Below, in pieces: positions 3,293 through 40,123 of a DNA stretch of 64,000 nucleotides (positions are counted from its first letter, which is position 1; each line of letters begins with the position of its first letter). The notes beneath the pieces were generated by a model. The model worked only from the letters and a program-made list of their open reading frames with translations. It ran no database searches and was not told the DNA's origin. A program made the position numbers and the translations under genes. The DNA is from Cellvibrio sp. PSBB006 (GTDB lineage Bacteria > Pseudomonadota > Gammaproteobacteria > Pseudomonadales > Cellvibrionaceae). The stretch covers positions 2,726,001-2,790,000 of the forward strand of contig NZ_CP021382.1 of the NCBI RefSeq assembly GCF_002162135.1, given 5' to 3'.

Positions 3293-4366
3293 GTGAGCCC
3301 TCGCGATCTTCACAAACCGCTGCTCGACAGCCTCAGTACAGCCATTATTCTGGTGGACGGCGATCTGCTCCTGCGCCATATGAATCCGGCTGCCGAAGCC
3401 TTACTGTCGATGAGCTGTGAACGCAATATCGGCGAGCCCATCACCTACTTCTTCCACGAATCCAACGAAACCGAAAAACAACTCAAACTCGCCGCCGTTC
3501 AGGCTAATCACTACACCAAGCGCCATGCTGAATGGCAGCTGCTCAGCGGTGGCCATATCACCGTGGATTACACGGTGACGCCCTTTGGCGACCACGAAGG
3601 CCTGATCATCGAAATCCTGCCAATTGACCGCCTGCTGCGTATCAGCCGCGAGGAGATGCTGGCCTCATCCCACGAGACCACGCGCAACCTGATTCGCGGC
3701 ATGGCCCATGAGATCAAGAATCCACTGGGCGGTATTCGCGGAGCCGCCCAATTGCTGGCGCGGGAACTGCCGGACAGCGGCTTGCAGGAGTACACCAATA
3801 TCATCATCGACGAGGCAGATCGCCTGCGTAACCTCGTTGATCGTATGCTCGGCCCCAACCAGCTGCCACAGCACAAGCAACTCAACATCCACGAAGCGCT
3901 GGAGCGAGTGGCAACCATCATCCACGCCGAAAGCAACGATGCGGTCAAGATCGTGCGCGATTACGACCCCAGTATTCCGGACATCATGGGCGACAAGGAG
4001 CTGCTGATTCAGGCGTTCCTGAACATCGTGCGCAACGCCATGCAGGCATTGCTTGAGGCGGGCATGATCGATGGGGTGATTCGCCTGCGTACCCGCATCC
4101 AACGGCAATTCACTATCGGGCGCCGCCATCATCCGCTGGTGTGCCGCGTCGACATCCTGGACAACGGCCCCGGTATTCCCCAGGACATGATCGAAAACAT
4201 TTTCTACCCCATGATCTCCGGGCGCGCTGAAGGCACCGGACTGGGCTTAACGATTTCGCAACACCTTATCCATCAACACCACGGCCTTATCGAGTGCCAG
4301 AGTGAGCCGGGCCAAACCCGTTTCACTCTCTACCTACCAATGGAAGTACAACATGCAGAAGTCTAA
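3293..4366 (+). CDS. ntrB: nitrogen regulation sensor kinase NtrB
   Basis: This cytosolic histidine kinase phosphorylates or dephosphorylates NtrC depending on PII signals. From the GTG at 3293 the product has 357 residues: a PAS domain (about 5-120), the phospho-acceptor helix RGMAHEIKNPLGG with His139 (the same number as in E. coli NtrB), an N box (NIVRNAMQAL), a DNGPGI G1 box and a GTGLGL G2 box. I prefer GTG 3293 to ATG 3254 because AGGAG lies at 3277-3281, the His numbering matches, and homologues start close to the LLDSLSTA segment; the spacing of 11 is somewhat long. A tiny ATG-AAT-CGG-TGA reading frame overlaps the GTG. It overlaps ntrC by 14 bases. Confidence 0.93.
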   Translation: MSPRDLHKPLLDSLSTAIILVDGDLLLRHMNPAAEALLSMSCERNIGEPITYFFHESNETEKQLKLAAVQANHYTKRHAEWQLLSGGHITVDYTVTPFGDHEGLIIEILPIDRLLRISREEMLASSHETTRNLIRGMAHEIKNPLGGIRGAAQLLARELPDSGLQEYTNIIIDEADRLRNLVDRMLGPNQLPQHKQLNIHEALERVATIIHAESNDAVKIVRDYDPSIPDIMGDKELLIQAFLNIVRNAMQALLEAGMIDGVIRLRTRIQRQFTIGRRHHPLVCRVDILDNGPGIPQDMIENIFYPMISGRAEGTGLGLTISQHLIHQHHGLIECQSEPGQTRFTLYLPMEVQHAEV

Positions 4367-33503: not shown

Positions 33504-34100
33504 CTAACGAGCTTTCAATGTGGCCAGCAATTGTGCCATGGCAATGCCGCGATGACTGATGCGATTTTTTTCAGCTTTATCCAACTCAGCCGCAGCGCAA
33601 TTGTGGGTCGGGACAAAGAACAAGGGATCATAACCAAAACCACCCTCCCCGCGCGGCGTACTGAGGATGCGCCCTTCCCAAACACCATGGCAAAGAATCG
33701 GCGTGGGGTCTTCCGCATGCCACATAAATGCCAGCACGCAGTGGTAACGCGCGGTGCGCTGGTCTTCCATTACATCATTCAATTCCTGAAGGAGTTTAGT
33801 GTTATTGGCTGAGTCCGATGCCTGAGTGCCGGCGTAGCGCGCCGAATAAATTCCCGGTCGACCATTCAACGCGTCCACCTCCAGGCCTGAGTCATCAGCA
33901 ATCGCTGGCAAGCCGGTGTGTTGGCACGCATGGCGCGCTTTAATAATGGCGTTTTCAACGAAGGTCAATCCGGTTTCGTCTGCGTTATCAATCTGGTAAG
34001 CCGATTGCGGTATTACATCGAACCCACAGTCAGCCAGTAATTGTTGGAACTCACGCAACTTGCCGGCATTACCGCTGGCGAGAATAATTTTTTGGCTCAT
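33504..34100 (-). CDS. rdgB: XTP/dITP (non-canonical purine NTP) pyrophosphatase
   Basis: It clears dITP, XTP and similar bases from the nucleotide pool. The 198 residues match E. coli RdgB (197). Signatures are [13 protein letters not shown] at the start, [24 protein letters not shown] with the catalytic aspartates, [12 protein letters not shown] and KNRISHRG at the end. The ATG at 34100 matches the family; an upstream GTG (34115) overlaps the DUF4426 stop. The start lies 12 bases inside the neighbour's stop region, so translation may be coupled. Confidence 0.96.
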
Positions 34101-34111
34101 AGAAAACACAA

Positions 34112-34618
34112 TCACTCTTCAGTGTGCAGGTTACGGGTAAAACGCACGGTAAACGGCGCAGACTCGGTTTCAGCCTGCACTTGCACGGCAAAATTAATCA
34201 CTTCTTCGTTGGTGTGACGCAGCGGCGCAAGGTAATAAGTCGCATCACCTTCAGCAATGGTTTTGAATTCCAGCGTGCGTTGTTGTTGGATTAGATTGGT
34301 CGCCGTACCGCTCACCCTGGCGGGCAAACCCAAGGTGGTTTTTCCGTCGACAGTTTGGGTGAGGCTAATGTTAATCAACGTTTGATTGCTCGCGCGTGTC
34401 AGCCCGTAAATCTGCGCAATCTCGGGGCTGATAAACGTGCTGTTAAACGTGCTGAAATGGACCGTGTAATTGCCAAATTTTTGTGAGGTTTCCACGGGTT
34501 TCAGTTGGTCGGTTTGAGCCTGGCTTGCCAGAGCGGGTAGCAACAGCATGAAAACCCACAGATGGAGGCGAAAAGAAAGGGCACGAAAAAGAAGAGCGCG
34601 AAGATGTGACATTGCCAT
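34112..34618 (-). CDS. exported DUF4426 protein
   Basis: This 168-residue protein has a signal peptide ([18 protein letters not shown]) and one DUF4426 domain ([39 protein letters not shown]). It should be periplasmic. The family's role is unknown, but its place beside rdgB and hemW is conserved in Pseudomonas. ATG 34618 has GGGAG five bases upstream; longer in-frame starts up to 34648 lack one. Confidence 0.9.
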
Positions 34619-34689
34619 GAATCTCCCAACGGACAAAAGTGCCCGCATTTTACAGGATTACACGGCAAATAAATGGTGAAAGTGGGGAT

Positions 34690-34721
34690 AGAACGAAACA
34701 CCGGAGCCTTAGGCTCCAGTG
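34690..34721 (-). terminator. terminator of the DUF4168 gene
   Basis: Minus strand: CACTGGAGCC / GGCTCCGGTG with loop TAA (one G-U pair), followed by TTTCGTTCT, 19 bases after the stop. Confidence 0.7.
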
Positions 34722-34739
34722 TGATGAGAACAGCTGAAA

Positions 34740-35129
34740 TTAATTAGCCATTTTTTCCTGGATGCGAGAGCGCAGGTTTTGGTCTTGGCCCGCACGGCTG
34801 GCGATCTGCTGATATTCAGGGATAGTCAACCCAGTATCAGTCACCGCTTCCTGCATCTTGGTTTGAGCCTCTTGCTGCAGCTCGGTAGCCTTTTCAGGCA
34901 CTTCAGTAGATTGCAACTGCTCGCTGTATTCCTGGTTGATCTTCTGCACTTCCACGTAGGCCGTCACGAACTTATCCACTTTCTCTTCACTGAGCTGCGG
35001 TTGCGCCTGGGTCGCTGGCGCAGTGGGCGTGGTAGTTTGCGGAGCGGTTTCAGCCAAGGCTACAGGTGCTACGCACAAACCGGCCGTCACGGAAAGAATT
35101 GCCAGTGGTTGCTTGATCATCTTGAACAT
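34740..35129 (-). CDS. secreted DUF4168 protein, probable sigma-54-dependent target
   Basis: The 129-residue protein has a signal peptide (AILSVTAGLCVAPVALA), a Thr/Pro/Gln-rich linker and one helical DUF4168 domain (SEEKVDKFVTAYVEVQKINQEYSEQL ... EYQQIASRAGQDQNLRSRIQ). Its function is unknown; the size, export and helical Gln/Glu-rich make-up recall small periplasmic stress chaperones such as ZraP, but I see no sequence similarity to them. GAGGAGA lies upstream of the ATG. A strong sigma-54 promoter (35179-35195) and an upstream palindrome (35287-35298) precede it, next to a sigma-54 response regulator gene. Confidence 0.85.
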   Translation of the reverse strand: MFKMIKQPLAILSVTAGLCVAPVALAETAPQTTTPTAPATQAQPQLSEEKVDKFVTAYVEVQKINQEYSEQLQSTEVPEKATELQQEAQTKMQEAVTDTGLTIPEYQQIASRAGQDQNLRSRIQEKMAN

Positions 35130-35178
35130 AATTTTCTCCTCATTAACTCAACAGAAAAGTGTGAATACACAAGGAGTT

Positions 35179-35195
35179 TTGCAATCGCTATGCCA
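35179..35195 (-). promoter_or_regulatory. sigma-54 promoter of the DUF4168 gene
   Basis: Minus strand TGGCATAGCGATTGCAA: GG at 35194-35193, ten bases, GC at 35182-35181. Both TGGCA and TTGCA are near optimal. The predicted start is near 35169, giving a 40-base leader. Confidence 0.8.
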
Positions 35196-35286
35196 GCCAA
35201 CAAAAAACGTTAACGCATTGATTTATAAATCTTTTTTAATCTATATGTAAAAAACTTACTGTGCCCAAGCGCTCATGCGCCAGATT

Positions 35287-35298
35287 GACACATGTGTC
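35287..35298. promoter_or_regulatory. enhancer (UAS) candidate for the adjacent sigma-54 regulator
   Basis: GACACATGTGTC is a perfect 12-base palindrome centred about 124 bases upstream of the predicted DUF4168 start, a normal distance for a sigma-54 activator site. It is 7 bases from the stop codon of the response regulator gene. Confidence 0.5.
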
Positions 35299-35305
35299 TG
35301 ACGGT

Positions 35306-36688
35306 TTATTCGTCATCGCTATCCAACCAACGGTACAAGGTGCGGCGCCCGATGCCGAGAATTTCAGCGGCGCGCCGTTTATTGCCATCGACCTGCTGCA
35401 GCACATAGCGAATGTAGTCCTGCTCTATTGTTTCCAGCGGCACTAACTGGCCCTCTGCCATCGGCGGTTGCCAGCGGCTTTCAAAGGTATCCAGCGGCGT
35501 GATAGCGATGGACTGCACGCGTTCAGGCAAGTGTTCCACCTCGATTTGCTGGCCAGCACAAAAGGTGACCGCCCGCTCGATCATATTGGCCAGCTCACGC
35601 ACATTGCCGGGGAAGGGATAGGCTTTCAAACGCAGCAGCGCCTCGGCGGAGATACCTTCTACTGGCTGCTCGCGGCGCAGGTTTAGTTGCTTGAGGTGAT
35701 GGCTGATCAAGCGCTCCAGATCCCCGGCCCTGTGTCGCAAAGGCGGCACCTCCACGGAAAAGGTTTCGAGTCGATAGTACAAGTCTTCCCGAAAACGGCC
35801 AGCGCTGACTTCCTCCGTCAGTTGGCGGTTGGTGGCGGCGATAATCCGCACATCCAGCTCCTGCTCCCGGTTGCTGCCCACCGGACGCACGCGGCCATCC
35901 TGCAAGGTACGCAACAGACTCGACTGCATCTCCAGCGGCATCTCGCCGATCTCGTCCAGTAACACCGTGCCGCCGTTTGCGGCGGCGAATAATCCTTGCC
36001 GCGCTTTATCGGCGCCGGTAAAGGCACCCGCAGCATGGCCGAACAGTTCGCTCTCCAGCAGGCTGGCGGGAATGCCGCCGCAATTGATGGCGACAAAAGG
36101 CTTGTCGCGGCGGGGACTTTCATTGTGGAGGGCGCGCGCAACCAACTCTTTGCCCACGCCGCTCTCCCCCGTGATCAACACCGGCCCTTCGGCTTGGGCA
36201 ATCTGACGCAAGAGGGCAAATAACTGACGCATAGCACTGCTGCCGCCAATCATGCCGTGGAATTCGCCTTCATCCAGCAGCCGGCGATAGTAGGCCACCT
36301 CTTCCTGCAACCGCTGGCGTTGCAGAGTCCGCTCGACGCACAGGCGCAGATGATCAAGATCCAGGGGTTTGGTAAGGAAATCATCGGCGCCGCGTTTGAG
36401 CGCATCGACTGCCTGATCAATGGTGCCGAAGGCAGTAATGGCGATAAATCCCGGTTTGAGCGGCAGCTGTTTTACGTTTTCCAGCAGCGTCAGACCGTTG
36501 CCATCGGGCAGACGCAGATCGCTGACAATCAATTGGGGGAGTTGCGCCTGTAAAAATGCCCGCGCGTCCTGAATACCGCTGCAGGCGGTGCAACGGTGGC
36601 CTGCGTCCTCCAGCTCTTCCAACAGGAGCTGACGCAAGTCGGGATCATCCTCGACTAACAACACATCAACCGGCGGCGACTTCGTCAT
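35306..36688 (-). CDS. sigma-54-dependent response regulator
   Basis: This 460-residue NtrC-family activator has a receiver domain with Asp57 (IVSDLRLPDG), an AAA+ domain (about 140-365; Walker A GESGVGKE, contact loop GAFTGA intact) and a Fis-type helix-turn-helix (AAEILGIGRRTLYRWL). It should activate sigma-54 promoters after phosphorylation by the kinase encoded just upstream (14 bases apart). The nearest such promoter is that of DUF4168. CAGGAG lies before the ATG. The signal and other targets are unknown. It is distinct from NtrC, which is at 4353. Confidence 0.93.
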   Translation of the reverse strand: MTKSPPVDVLLVEDDPDLRQLLLEELEDAGHRCTACSGIQDARAFLQAQLPQLIVSDLRLPDGNGLTLLENVKQLPLKPGFIAITAFGTIDQAVDALKRGADDFLTKPLDLDHLRLCVERTLQRQRLQEEVAYYRRLLDEGEFHGMIGGSSAMRQLFALLRQIAQAEGPVLITGESGVGKELVARALHNESPRRDKPFVAINCGGIPASLLESELFGHAAGAFTGADKARQGLFAAANGGTVLLDEIGEMPLEMQSSLLRTLQDGRVRPVGSNREQELDVRIIAATNRQLTEEVSAGRFREDLYYRLETFSVEVPPLRHRAGDLERLISHHLKQLNLRREQPVEGISAEALLRLKAYPFPGNVRELANMIERAVTFCAGQQIEVEHLPERVQSIAITPLDTFESRWQPPMAEGQLVPLETIEQDYIRYVLQQVDGNKRRAAEILGIGRRTLYRWLDSDDE

Positions 36689-36702
36689 GTTCAGCTCCTG
36701 GT

Positions 36703-38169
36703 TCAGGCAGATTGGTCAGGTGGATTAATCGGCAAGTGCAGACTGAATTTGGCACCACCCCACTCACTATCACCGACGTCGATTCGACCGCCGTGTTCAC
36801 TGACCACCGCATCGACCACCGCCAATCCCAAACCGGTGCCGCTGCTTTTGGTCGTAAAGAAGGGTTCCAGTAATCGGCGCTGATCCACTTCATCAATGCC
36901 GGGGCCGTCATCTTCCACAGTGAATACCAGCCAACCCGGTTCGGTCGTGTACCAATCCAGCCGGACACGCCCGCCCGGCGCTGCCTGAATGGCATTGCGC
37001 AGCAGGTTGATCAACGCCTGCTCCAGACGCAAACGATCGCCGTGAAGAATGAGCGGCGTATCCTGGCCCGCCAGTACCATCTGCACTTGCTGTTGCTGCC
37101 GCTCCATATCCACCTGGGCCAGCGTGGAATGCAGCAGGTCGGCCACCCGGACCTCGCTGGCCACCGGTTTAACCGGGCGGGCGAAATCCATCAGTTGGCG
37201 AATGATGCGTTCCATACGTTGCAACTGTTGGCGAATCTGATGCAGCACACCGGCGCTCTGTTCGTCCGCCCGGCGCAACTCGCGCTGAGCTTTGCCGTCC
37301 GCCACGCTGAGCGGCGTGCCTAATTCGTGGGCCACACCCGCCGCAAAGCGACCGATGGCGGCCAATTTTTCCGTTTGCTGTAACCGGCTTTGTAGTTCGT
37401 ATTCCCGTTCGCGCCGCTCGCGTAATTCCTGTTCGGAGGCCACGATACTGTCGAGCATTTGATTAAAGCCCTGCGCCAGAAAACGAATTTCAGACGGGCC
37501 GTCCACCGCCACCCGGTGTTGTAGTTCACCCGCTGCGATCATCTCCATATCTTCGCGCATTCGATGAATATGGCGCCCCACCGCTCGCTGGTAACCAACC
37601 CAGATAAGCCCCGTAACCAGTAAGGTAGATAACACGAGCATAGCGATGGCATTCGCGCGAAATTCATCAACACGGCGAGAAAAATCACTGCCGCGACGGG
37701 TGACCTGCAAAAGCCCGATACTGTTTTCACCACTGTCCGTCAGCGGCAAAAAATAAGAAAACACTTCTTCGCCACCCACTTTGTCAAACTCACCTTGCTC
37801 GTCACCCTTGTTCGCCAGATCTACCGCTTCGCGATCCTGCACCCGCGCCTTGGATGAACCACTGGTGGAAATACGCCGGCCGTCTTTGTCATACACATAC
37901 ACGGCGTAAACTTTGTCGATATCGAAGATGGAGGTCACGCTACGCTGTAAGGTGCCGGAGTGACCATGTTGCAGCGCATGACTCAGCGGAAGACGAATAG
38001 CGCGCGCCAACAATTCAATTTCTTCTTCCATTGCCGCCTTGGCGCTGGCTTCCAGACGGTATAAACCGTACCAACCCGTCGCGACAATGGTGATCAGGAA
38101 AGGCAATAAGACAAACACCAGCAAGGCGGCGCGTATGTTGTAAAACGCGATTCGGTTAAATAAAAACAT
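36703..38169 (-). CDS. sensor histidine kinase with periplasmic sensor domain
   Basis: The 488-residue membrane kinase has a first helix (14-36), a periplasmic domain of about 135 residues with a PAS-like look (VYAVYVYDKDGRRISTSG ... VFSYFLPLTDSGENSIGLLQV), a second helix (173-194), a HAMP domain (about 195-245), the phospho-acceptor His281 (GVAHELGTPL), N box NLLRNAIQAAP, and ATP boxes DDGPGID and GTGLGLAVV. The HELGTPL motif and general layout are like ZraS/HydH-type kinases paired with sigma-54 regulators. It is the partner of the regulator downstream. The stimulus is unknown. Confidence 0.92.
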   Translation of the reverse strand: MFLFNRIAFYNIRAALLVFVLLPFLITIVATGWYGLYRLEASAKAAMEEEIELLARAIRLPLSHALQHGHSGTLQRSVTSIFDIDKVYAVYVYDKDGRRISTSGSSKARVQDREAVDLANKGDEQGEFDKVGGEEVFSYFLPLTDSGENSIGLLQVTRRGSDFSRRVDEFRANAIAMLVLSTLLVTGLIWVGYQRAVGRHIHRMREDMEMIAAGELQHRVAVDGPSEIRFLAQGFNQMLDSIVASEQELRERREREYELQSRLQQTEKLAAIGRFAAGVAHELGTPLSVADGKAQRELRRADEQSAGVLHQIRQQLQRMERIIRQLMDFARPVKPVASEVRVADLLHSTLAQVDMERQQQQVQMVLAGQDTPLILHGDRLRLEQALINLLRNAIQAAPGGRVRLDWYTTEPGWLVFTVEDDGPGIDEVDQRRLLEPFFTTKSSGTGLGLAVVDAVVSEHGGRIDVGDSEWGGAKFSLHLPINPPDQSA

Positions 38170-38213
38170 AGGCAGGCATGTGTTTGTGAATGATGCTTCA
38201 TCCTAACACACAC

Positions 38214-38246
38214 AAAAAAAGCGCTGCTCCACGAATGGAGAGCGCT
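38214..38246 (-). terminator. Rho-independent terminator of metXW
   Basis: Minus strand: AGCGCT-CTCCA / TGGAG-C-AGCGCT with a TTCG loop, followed by TTTTTTT, 19 bases after metW. Confidence 0.9.
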
Positions 38247-38264
38247 GTGCAAGCGAAGTGAAAA

Positions 38265-38858
38265 TCAGGCGGATTTGCGCAGGTGATAAATGGCGGTTTC
38301 ACCAAACAGGTTAGGCGCAATATCTTTCAGAGTTTGCAGGGATTTTTCGTTAACAACCTGGCGATTGATCACCTGAATATTTTTTTCGCGACACAACACC
38401 TCGAAATCCTTAAAGGTACAAAAATGGATGTTGGGTGTGTCGTACCACTCATAAGGCAAGAGGTCGGAAACCGGCATACGTCCGCGCGTAGCGAGGTAAA
38501 AACGCGCCTTCCAATGACCGAAGTTCGGGAAGGTCACGATACATTCCTTGCCGACCCGCAACATTTCATCCAGCACCAGGTGGGGAAAATGCAGGGTTTG
38601 CAACGCCTGGGTCATCAGTACCGTATCAAAACTTTTATCGGAAAAATTGCCCAATCCGCGATCCAGGTTTTGTTCGACAACATTTAACCCTTTATCGATA
38701 CACAAATTAATTTGTTCCGGGTCTATCTCTAATCCGTAGCCTTCCACTTGTTTGTTGTCGATCAAAAATTTCAGCAGCGTGCCGTCGCCGCAACCCAGAT
38801 CGAGAATCCGGCTGCCCTGCGTGATCCAGTGTTGAATTTCATTAAGATCTATACGCAT
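38265..38858 (-). CDS. metW: methionine biosynthesis protein MetW
   Basis: The 197-residue class I methyltransferase-like protein has the SAM motif SRILDLGCGDGTLL and the conserved VTFPNFGHWKARFYL and PYEWYDTPNIHFCT segments of MetW. It acts with MetX in methionine synthesis in many proteobacteria, probably modulating its activity. It starts three bases after the metX stop, so the two form one translational unit, ended by the terminator at 38214. Confidence 0.95.
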   Translation of the reverse strand: MRIDLNEIQHWITQGSRILDLGCGDGTLLKFLIDNKQVEGYGLEIDPEQINLCIDKGLNVVEQNLDRGLGNFSDKSFDTVLMTQALQTLHFPHLVLDEMLRVGKECIVTFPNFGHWKARFYLATRGRMPVSDLLPYEWYDTPNIHFCTFKDFEVLCREKNIQVINRQVVNEKSLQTLKDIAPNLFGETAIYHLRKSA

Positions 38859-38861
38859 AAC

Positions 38862-40007
38862 TTACTCCGTGGCAATCCCGGCGAGGTAACGGGCGAACAC
38901 TTGCTGATAACGCGGGTTGGGTAACAGGAACGCATCGTGACCGAAGTTGGATTCAATGTCGGCATAGGTCACTGCTTTGCGTGCGCCCATCAGTGCGTTC
39001 ACAATTTCGCGCGAACGCTCCGGCGCAAAACGCCAGTCGGTACTGAAGGACACCACCAGAAATTTTGCGCGCGCGTGACTGAAGGCAGCAACCGGATCAT
39101 CGTCGTACTCGCGCGCGAGGTCAAAATAATCCAGCGCCTTGGTAATCAGCAAATAACTGTTCGCATCAAAATTATTCGCAAACGTGTCGCCCTGATAACG
39201 CAGGTAACTTTCAATCTGGAACTCCACCGGCTCATCAGTGCCGCGCTCAAAACTGCCTTTGCGTAGATCGCGGCCGAATTTCTCACCCATGGCGTAATCC
39301 GACAAATAAGTAATGTGACCGATCATCCGCGCGACCGCCAATCCGTTGCGCGGCAAAGTATTCTCTTCGAGGTAGCGACCTTCACAAAAATTCGGGTCGC
39401 TCATGATCGCCTGGCGCGCGGTTTCATTGAACGCAATGTTCTGGGCCGTGAGTTTCATCGCGGACGCAATTACCACGCAATGACGCACCCGCTCCGGATA
39501 CTCCAGAGCCCAACGCATAACCTGCATTCCACCCAGACTGCCACCGATGATGGCCGCCCAGGTATCAATACCCAATTTGTCGGCCAGACACGCCTGGCTC
39601 GCCACCCAATCGCGCACGCGCAATTTGGGAAAATCCGGCCCCCAGGGTTTATTGGTTGCCGGGTTGATACTGGTGGGGCCGGTCGAGCCGTGACAGCCAC
39701 CAATGTTATTCAGTGCAACCACAAAAAATTTATTGGTATCAATAGGTTTGCCGGGGCCGATGTAAGCATCCCACCAGCCAGGTTTGCGATCTTCCGCCGT
39801 GTGATAACCCGCTGCATGATGATGGCCGGACAACGCGTGACAAATCAGCACCGCATTGGATTTGCTGGCGTTGAGCTGGCCGTAGGTTTCATAGATGAGT
39901 TGATAATTGTCCAGCGTCTTGCCACAGGCCAGCAGCAAGGGTTCATTGAAATGAATGGTCTGAGGCGTAACCAGACCCACTGAATCAGCGGGTAGCGTTA
40001 TTGGCAT
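38862..40007 (-). CDS. metX: homoserine O-acyltransferase
   Basis: It activates homoserine with acetyl- or succinyl-CoA for methionine synthesis. The 381-residue alpha/beta-hydrolase has the nucleophile elbow GGSLGGMQ (Ser157), the oxyanion region [12 protein letters not shown], and the C-terminal catalytic Asp and His (SNFGHDAFL). Acyl donor preference cannot be decided from sequence alone. ATG 40007 begins [11 protein letters not shown]; the frame extends eight codons further. It leads the metXW unit. Confidence 0.95.
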
Positions 40008-40123
40008 GATGATCTCGTATCTCGGCAGCACACAATGAACATCGCCGTGTGGCGAAGGCCGCTCAGGCGCGGCGACAAAGGCGCAAGTCTACGGTCGCCA
40101 CTCGGTGGCTGCAAGGGAGTTGT

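Follow-up and report, generated by a model that had tools for sequence, protein, structure and literature searches.

Three adjacent genes in a 64,000-nucleotide stretch of Cellvibrio sp. PSBB006 (contig NZ_CP021382.1, positions 2,726,001 to 2,790,000; hereafter the window) encode a sensor kinase of the PDC type, an NtrC-type regulator with a GAFTGA motif and a secreted protein of the DUF4168 family. We consider it very likely that these genes form a dedicated envelope circuit of three parts, in which the kinase and the regulator serve a single sigma-54 promoter that drives DUF4168. For the regulatory part of this circuit, predicted by comparison with related loci, our confidence is higher still; feedback of DUF4168 on the kinase is a tentative proposal, made by analogy and leaning towards doubt. 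The linkage of the genes, the enhancer, the promoter, their phased spacing, the near-uniqueness of the enhancer site and the presence of a sigma-54 gene in the same genome are established by comparative analysis, as described below.

Three neighbouring genes and their linkage across genomes

All three genes lie on the minus strand. The sensor histidine kinase (36703-38169) combines a PDC/sCache-like periplasmic sensor with HAMP, HisKA and HATPase_c domains, and the regulator (35306-36688) consists of a receiver, an AAA+ domain (Sigma54_activat) with GAFTGA and a Fis-type helix-turn-helix. The predicted target gene (34740-35129) encodes a helical DUF4168 protein of 129 residues, which matches PF13767 with E 2.8e-17 and 63.9 bits against a curated cut-off of 25.8. 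Gene calls and domain matches thus bear out the original prediction that a kinase, a sigma-54 regulator retaining GAFTGA and a small secreted DUF4168 protein lie together. The signal peptide was read from the sequence by eye rather than called by a signal-peptide program. An AlphaFold2 model of the DUF4168 protein (predicted local distance difference test score 82) has four helices from residue 48. The kinase sensor domain is predicted to adopt a PDC-type fold, its point of likeness to the extracytoplasmic sensor domains of WalK, CitA and DcuS (~12-16% identity over the aligned part); none of those systems is known to use a sigma-54 activator.

DUF4168 was present in 49 of the 293 genomes of the order, and we took 53 neighbourhoods that cover all 54 matches. 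A kinase-regulator pair like that of the window adjoins DUF4168 in 20 of these loci (the discovery set), with a regulator 50-71% identical to the window's in the 19 others. Two gene orders are found among them: DUF4168 lies downstream of the regulator in 6 and is divergent from the kinase in 14. The kinase sensor (alignment A2) was detected in 30/293 genomes at E<=1e-15, and all 30 also carry DUF4168. Strong kinase matches amounted to 21 copies in 20 genomes (E 4.8e-83 or better), of which all adjoin DUF4168 except the copy in G184:C19. In a sample of the class, the kinase occurred in 13/369 genomes, with DUF4168 present in all 13 and adjacent in 10/10 of the new ones. Sixteen of 17 loci from named genomes were adjacent and the 17th was interrupted by a contig end; they come from Marinimicrobium, Thiohalomonas, Porticoccus, Marinobacterium, Thioalkalivibrio, Pseudohongiella, Halothiobacillus, Wenzhouxiangella, Methylohalomonas and unclassified bins. 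In a tree of 45 regulators, all 21 co-directional loci lie to the same side of a single branch (95/93); at least one change of gene order therefore took place without loss of the linkage.

A conserved sigma-54 promoter before DUF4168

The predicted sigma-54 promoter was found at 35180-35195 on the minus strand (TGGCATAGCGATTGCA, GG-N10-GC), the only match in the window to the pattern TGGCAY-N5-TTGCW. Since a shuffled window would contain this pattern 0.31 times on average, the promoter is not significant by itself; the significance of the window sites comes from their conservation in relatives. The 300 bp before each DUF4168 gene were scored with a sigma-54 consensus. In all 20 linked loci the best site starts with TGGCAY and lies 38-106 nt before the start codon, with a dinucleotide-shuffle p of <=0.03 in 16 and <=0.13 in every one. 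Among the 33 unlinked loci, three had a site at p<0.02 (L033, L040 and L074), near the gene only in L033. Twelve of the 20 discovery promoters retain GC at -12; in the other eight the C has changed, with the -24 element and the spacing still conserved. In L079, which has tandem DUF4168 genes, the gene counted is the one farther from the kinase; the nearer one has a sigma-54-like site and lacks the enhancer described below. A sigma-54 gene was found in 33/33 genomes checked.

A 24-bp enhancer upstream of the promoter

Farther upstream lies the 24-bp element AGACACATGTGTCAATCTGGCGCA (35276-35299, minus strand, 28.8 bits), a dyad followed by a third, promoter-proximal half-site, which we term the enhancer. 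Its dyad is the perfect 12-base palindrome GACACATGTGTC (35287-35298, no strand assigned; present in 0/100 shuffles), which is the core of the larger form TGRCACATGNGNCA-N3-TGRCACA. The palindrome had been placed about 124 bases upstream of the DUF4168 start. Its presence stands, and the distance is corrected by the coordinates: 157 bases separate it from the A of the start codon and 91 from the promoter. The enhancer matrix was derived from a shared element spotted in the linked upstream regions and refined to 24 bp. With this matrix, 17/20 linked loci carried the enhancer (24.7-34.1 bits) and 33/33 unlinked loci scored 10.7 bits or less; single-base shuffles had a 99% point of 9.8 and a maximum of 16.7 bits. 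The enhancer score is the highest in the window. In leave-one-out scoring, every one of the 17 carriers outscored all 100 of its shuffles (17.7-33.3); the window site reached 24.9, and its shuffles at most 10.0. In L080, the preferred alignment was one that overlaps this site.

Promoter and enhancer were also scored in a further set of 20 loci outside the matrix building (12 from named genomes and 8 from the class sample; some belong to other taxonomic orders), comprising 22 DUF4168 genes after six duplicates of other loci had been removed. Three of these loci (L163, L164 and L171) are closely related to loci of the discovery set. The enhancer scored above 100/100 shuffles in 19/22 promoters, and a sigma-54 site reached by <=5/100 shuffles was present in 21/22, the miss being L171 (15/100). 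Conservation of promoter and palindrome in relatives, the check proposed with the prediction, thus held in the discovery set and in the further loci. The regions scanned for L219 and L220 were shifted upstream by hand, the former for a long leader and the latter for a first gene in front. Because the shifted region of L220 gave a weaker site (13.5) than the previously seen TGGCATGCCCGTTGCT (15.2), the L220 row is unreliable. That first gene, behind the L220 enhancer and promoter and ahead of DUF4168, encodes a small Gly/Gln-rich, secreted-looking protein. Tandem DUF4168 genes occur in L168 (7174-7527 and 7756-8229), where both genes have an enhancer and a sigma-54 site of their own, and also in L221 and L079, with a sigma-54-like site for each gene.

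Phased spacing between enhancer and promoter

In 15 discovery loci (L052 and L075 were left out as near-copies), the distances from the dyad to the promoter TGG cluster near 82, 93, 105, 115 and 126 bp. The best period was 11.05 (R 0.78), with a Monte Carlo p, corrected for period scanning, of 0.0002 for the 15 loci and 0.009 for 11 thinned ones. Measured against this preset phase, the further set gave p 0.0004 (15 distances) and 0.0013 (12 thinned), and a period of 10.5 gave p 0.005-0.008; the L219 distance was set by hand, and L163, L164, L171, L214, L220 and L221 were outside this test. Enhancer-to-start-codon distances in the discovery set showed no phasing (R at most 0.32). For in vivo lac loops, PMC1762422 gives two fits, of 11.60 and 11.08 bp per turn, and PMC4740811 describes sigma-54 enhancers as tolerating full-turn indels. 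The likeness to the Vibrio qrr enhancers of that paper lies in the tolerance of indels of one helical repeat. Here, in contrast, the regulon is different and the dyad-promoter distance itself falls into classes, near 82-126 bp. These naturally occurring spacings, which differ from one another by full helical turns, offer a ready test set for enhancer looping.

In the interval between enhancer and promoter, the window has a sequence resembling a site for integration host factor (IHF), AATCAATGCGTTA (35211-35223, minus strand), which lies 28 bp before the TGG and matches 9/9 positions of the consensus WATCAANNNNTTR. When this interval was scanned, the top matches of the 15 discovery loci added up to 121; shuffles averaged 105, and 0/300 reached 121. 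Matches of 9/9 occur in five loci, the window included, and nine of the 15 matches sit 28-31 bp before the TGG; in three loci the match is at chance level (p 0.67-0.85). The location of these IHF-like sites in the presumed loop is suggestive only.

How dedicated the proposed circuit is

Across 23 genomes searched with the enhancer model, the DUF4168 promoter held the best match in 17. Three of the other six had no match, G184 had its match at a second kinase-regulator pair, and G040 and G183 had weak ones elsewhere. In the window's own genome, the DUF4168 enhancer is the only site at E<=1 (150 candidates scored), and the pattern with up to three mismatches returned the DUF4168 site on both strands and two others (12.3 and 13.7 vs 28.8 bits). 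Few second matches in the other genomes reach E<=1; the strongest that is unrelated belongs to G060 (18.2 vs 21.6 bits). Since 150 candidates were scored per genome, weaker targets could be missed. The second pair of G184 is in L114 (G184:C19), with its enhancer at 4001-4025 and no adjacent DUF4168; unlike it, the pair beside DUF4168 in that genome has no enhancer.

A second enhancer was seen before the kinase gene in 5/14 co-directional named loci (L161, L165, L166, L169 and L176, 49-98 bp before the kinase match) and is not found there in the window. This copy may have remained from the divergent arrangement or may serve autoregulation. In the 12 of 14 divergent discovery loci that were examined, no sigma-54 site facing the kinase was better than shuffles (p 0.19-0.81), and on the window's own kinase side the best sigma-54 score was 10.9 of 15.6. 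In nine divergent loci with the enhancer, no more than 107 bp separate the start of the element from that predicted for the kinase. Since the enhancer is thus near the kinase start and no sigma-54 site was seen facing the kinase, the regulator may dampen its own operon.

Alternative readings

The unit had been described as ZraPSR-like, which holds for layout and logic. As in ZraP-ZraSR, an NtrC-type regulator and a kinase are neighbours of a small periplasmic protein that has a sigma-54 promoter, and in 20/20 linked loci the sequence places such a promoter, that of the secreted protein, beside the pair. PMC7657598 and PMC4987338 describe a very small set of targets for ZraP-ZraSR (in E. coli, zraP, zraSR and mgtA), and a title cited in PMC4987338 states that ZraP represses ZraSR. 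The shared layout, together with a kinase catalytic half that is closest to ZraS (9jfj) among solved structures, would suit a true ZraPSR homologue, responsive to zinc and with a secreted metal-binding chaperone. Membership nevertheless failed on several counts. The regulator misses the ZraR equivalog cut-off (357.7 vs 760 bits) and the kinase that of ZraS (155.9 vs 479 bits, residues 250-482 only). The window's secreted protein, correctly predicted to belong to another family than ZraP, matched at E<=1 only DUF4168 and, below its cut-off, FHIPEP, and not the ZraP (metal-resistance) family; nor did that family appear among the 25 of 77 matches listed for 36 DUF4168 members. After residue 22, the linked DUF4168 proteins have no Cys in 20/20 and no His in 18/20, which disfavours a zinc role. 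In Salmonella, zraSR and zraP have divergent sigma-54 promoters, both driven by ZraR (PMC4987338), unlike the divergent loci examined here, where a sigma-54 promoter is seen only on the DUF4168 side. The regulator, kinase and secreted protein families thus differ from those of ZraPSR, and true homology is very improbable; the best reading is that the circuit works like ZraP-ZraSR without being a member.

That DUF4168 is a passive neighbour, with sigma-54-like sites that are due to chance or belong to another activator, is scarcely credible: the promoter pattern alone would be common enough (0.31 per window), yet sigma-54 sites accompany 20/20 linked against 3/33 unlinked loci, the linkage is kept across two gene orders and the enhancer-promoter phasing was repeated in the second set. 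We also think it unlikely that the regulator acts broadly, with DUF4168 as one of many targets. Its NtrC-type architecture and the second enhancer of five co-directional named loci would fit such a role, but the two other sites in the window's genome fall far short of 28.8 bits and the best unrelated site elsewhere stays below 21.6, among the 150 candidates scored per genome.

Several points weigh against a dedicated circuit. Regulator binding, activation, the role of IHF, export and feedback are all things that we infer from sequence alone, and the related loci are non-independent samples. In ten genomes of family f36 (at a guess, perhaps Halomonadaceae), the kinase has diverged (E 2e-51 to 1e-61) and does not adjoin DUF4168; the f36 loci lack the promoter and enhancer sites (kinase surroundings inspected for 9/10 genomes). 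L033 (genome G057) has a sigma-54-like site, yet no such kinase was found in that genome. The C of -12 is changed in 8/20 discovery promoters (L034, L042, L047, L052, L054, L068, L071 and L072), including that of the closest relative, L034. The enhancer is missing from 3/20 linked loci (L045, L064 and L079) and from L214 (reached by 25/100 shuffles), and is weak before both genes of L221 (1/100 shuffles each). In the recognition helix (LGVTR), the first three of these have Thr at a position that is Gly or Asn in the 17 carriers; because L172 and L220 have the enhancer with Ser, and L214 lacks it despite the usual Gly, this residue is a lead and not a rule. The matrix seed was picked by eye from the scored loci, which is why the leave-one-out analysis was run. 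Finally, the enhancer search scored the best 150 of ~700-1300 first-look candidates per genome and the kinase searches <=8 (order) or <=7 (class sample), so that kinase absences are less sure than presences.

The DUF4168 gene of L033 is 48% identical to the window's, and the enhancer was not found in G057; the sigma-54-like site there is possibly a relic.

The proposed circuit

In the dedicated circuit that we favour, a periplasmic signal would act on the kinase through its PDC-type domain and lead to phosphorylation of the regulator, which would bind the 24-bp enhancer, with the dyad 97 bp before the promoter TGG. The DNA would loop back, probably with the help of IHF, and sigma-54 polymerase would transcribe DUF4168, whose small helical product would be exported and act in the periplasm. 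Given the analogies of ZraP with ZraSR and of QseG with QseE, DUF4168 may also report to the kinase. QseE-QseG-QseF is likewise a sigma-54 two-component system in which an envelope protein acts on the kinase as third component; according to PMC6075780, QseG activates QseE. It differs in that QseG is not the sigma-54 target but a lipoprotein whose gene shares the operon, and in that the QseEGF targets are glmY and rpoE.

Whether the loci represent an undescribed Gammaproteobacterial envelope-sensing system, with one pair, one promoter and DUF4168 as both the output and a ligand-like third component that sets kinase activity, is in our judgement a nearly balanced question. A search of open-access full text, subscription papers and preprints being outside it, found no paper on DUF4168. 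The proposed circuit links this domain of unknown function to a regulator, a promoter and a compartment, and its role consequently becomes testable through its inducer. It also adds a further layout of a sigma-54 system with an envelope protein, beside ZraPSR and QseEGF, in groups that include Cellvibrionaceae, Porticoccaceae and Wenzhouxiangellaceae.

Variants of GAFTGA occur in some discovery regulators (GAFTDA in L045; Ser, Thr or Asn before AFTGA in L054, L068 and L071), all of which adjoin sigma-54-like promoters. In the window, the unit is flanked by DUF4426-RdgB-type genes and MetW (33504-40031), and the DUF4426-RdgB side is kept in Marinimicrobium (L034).

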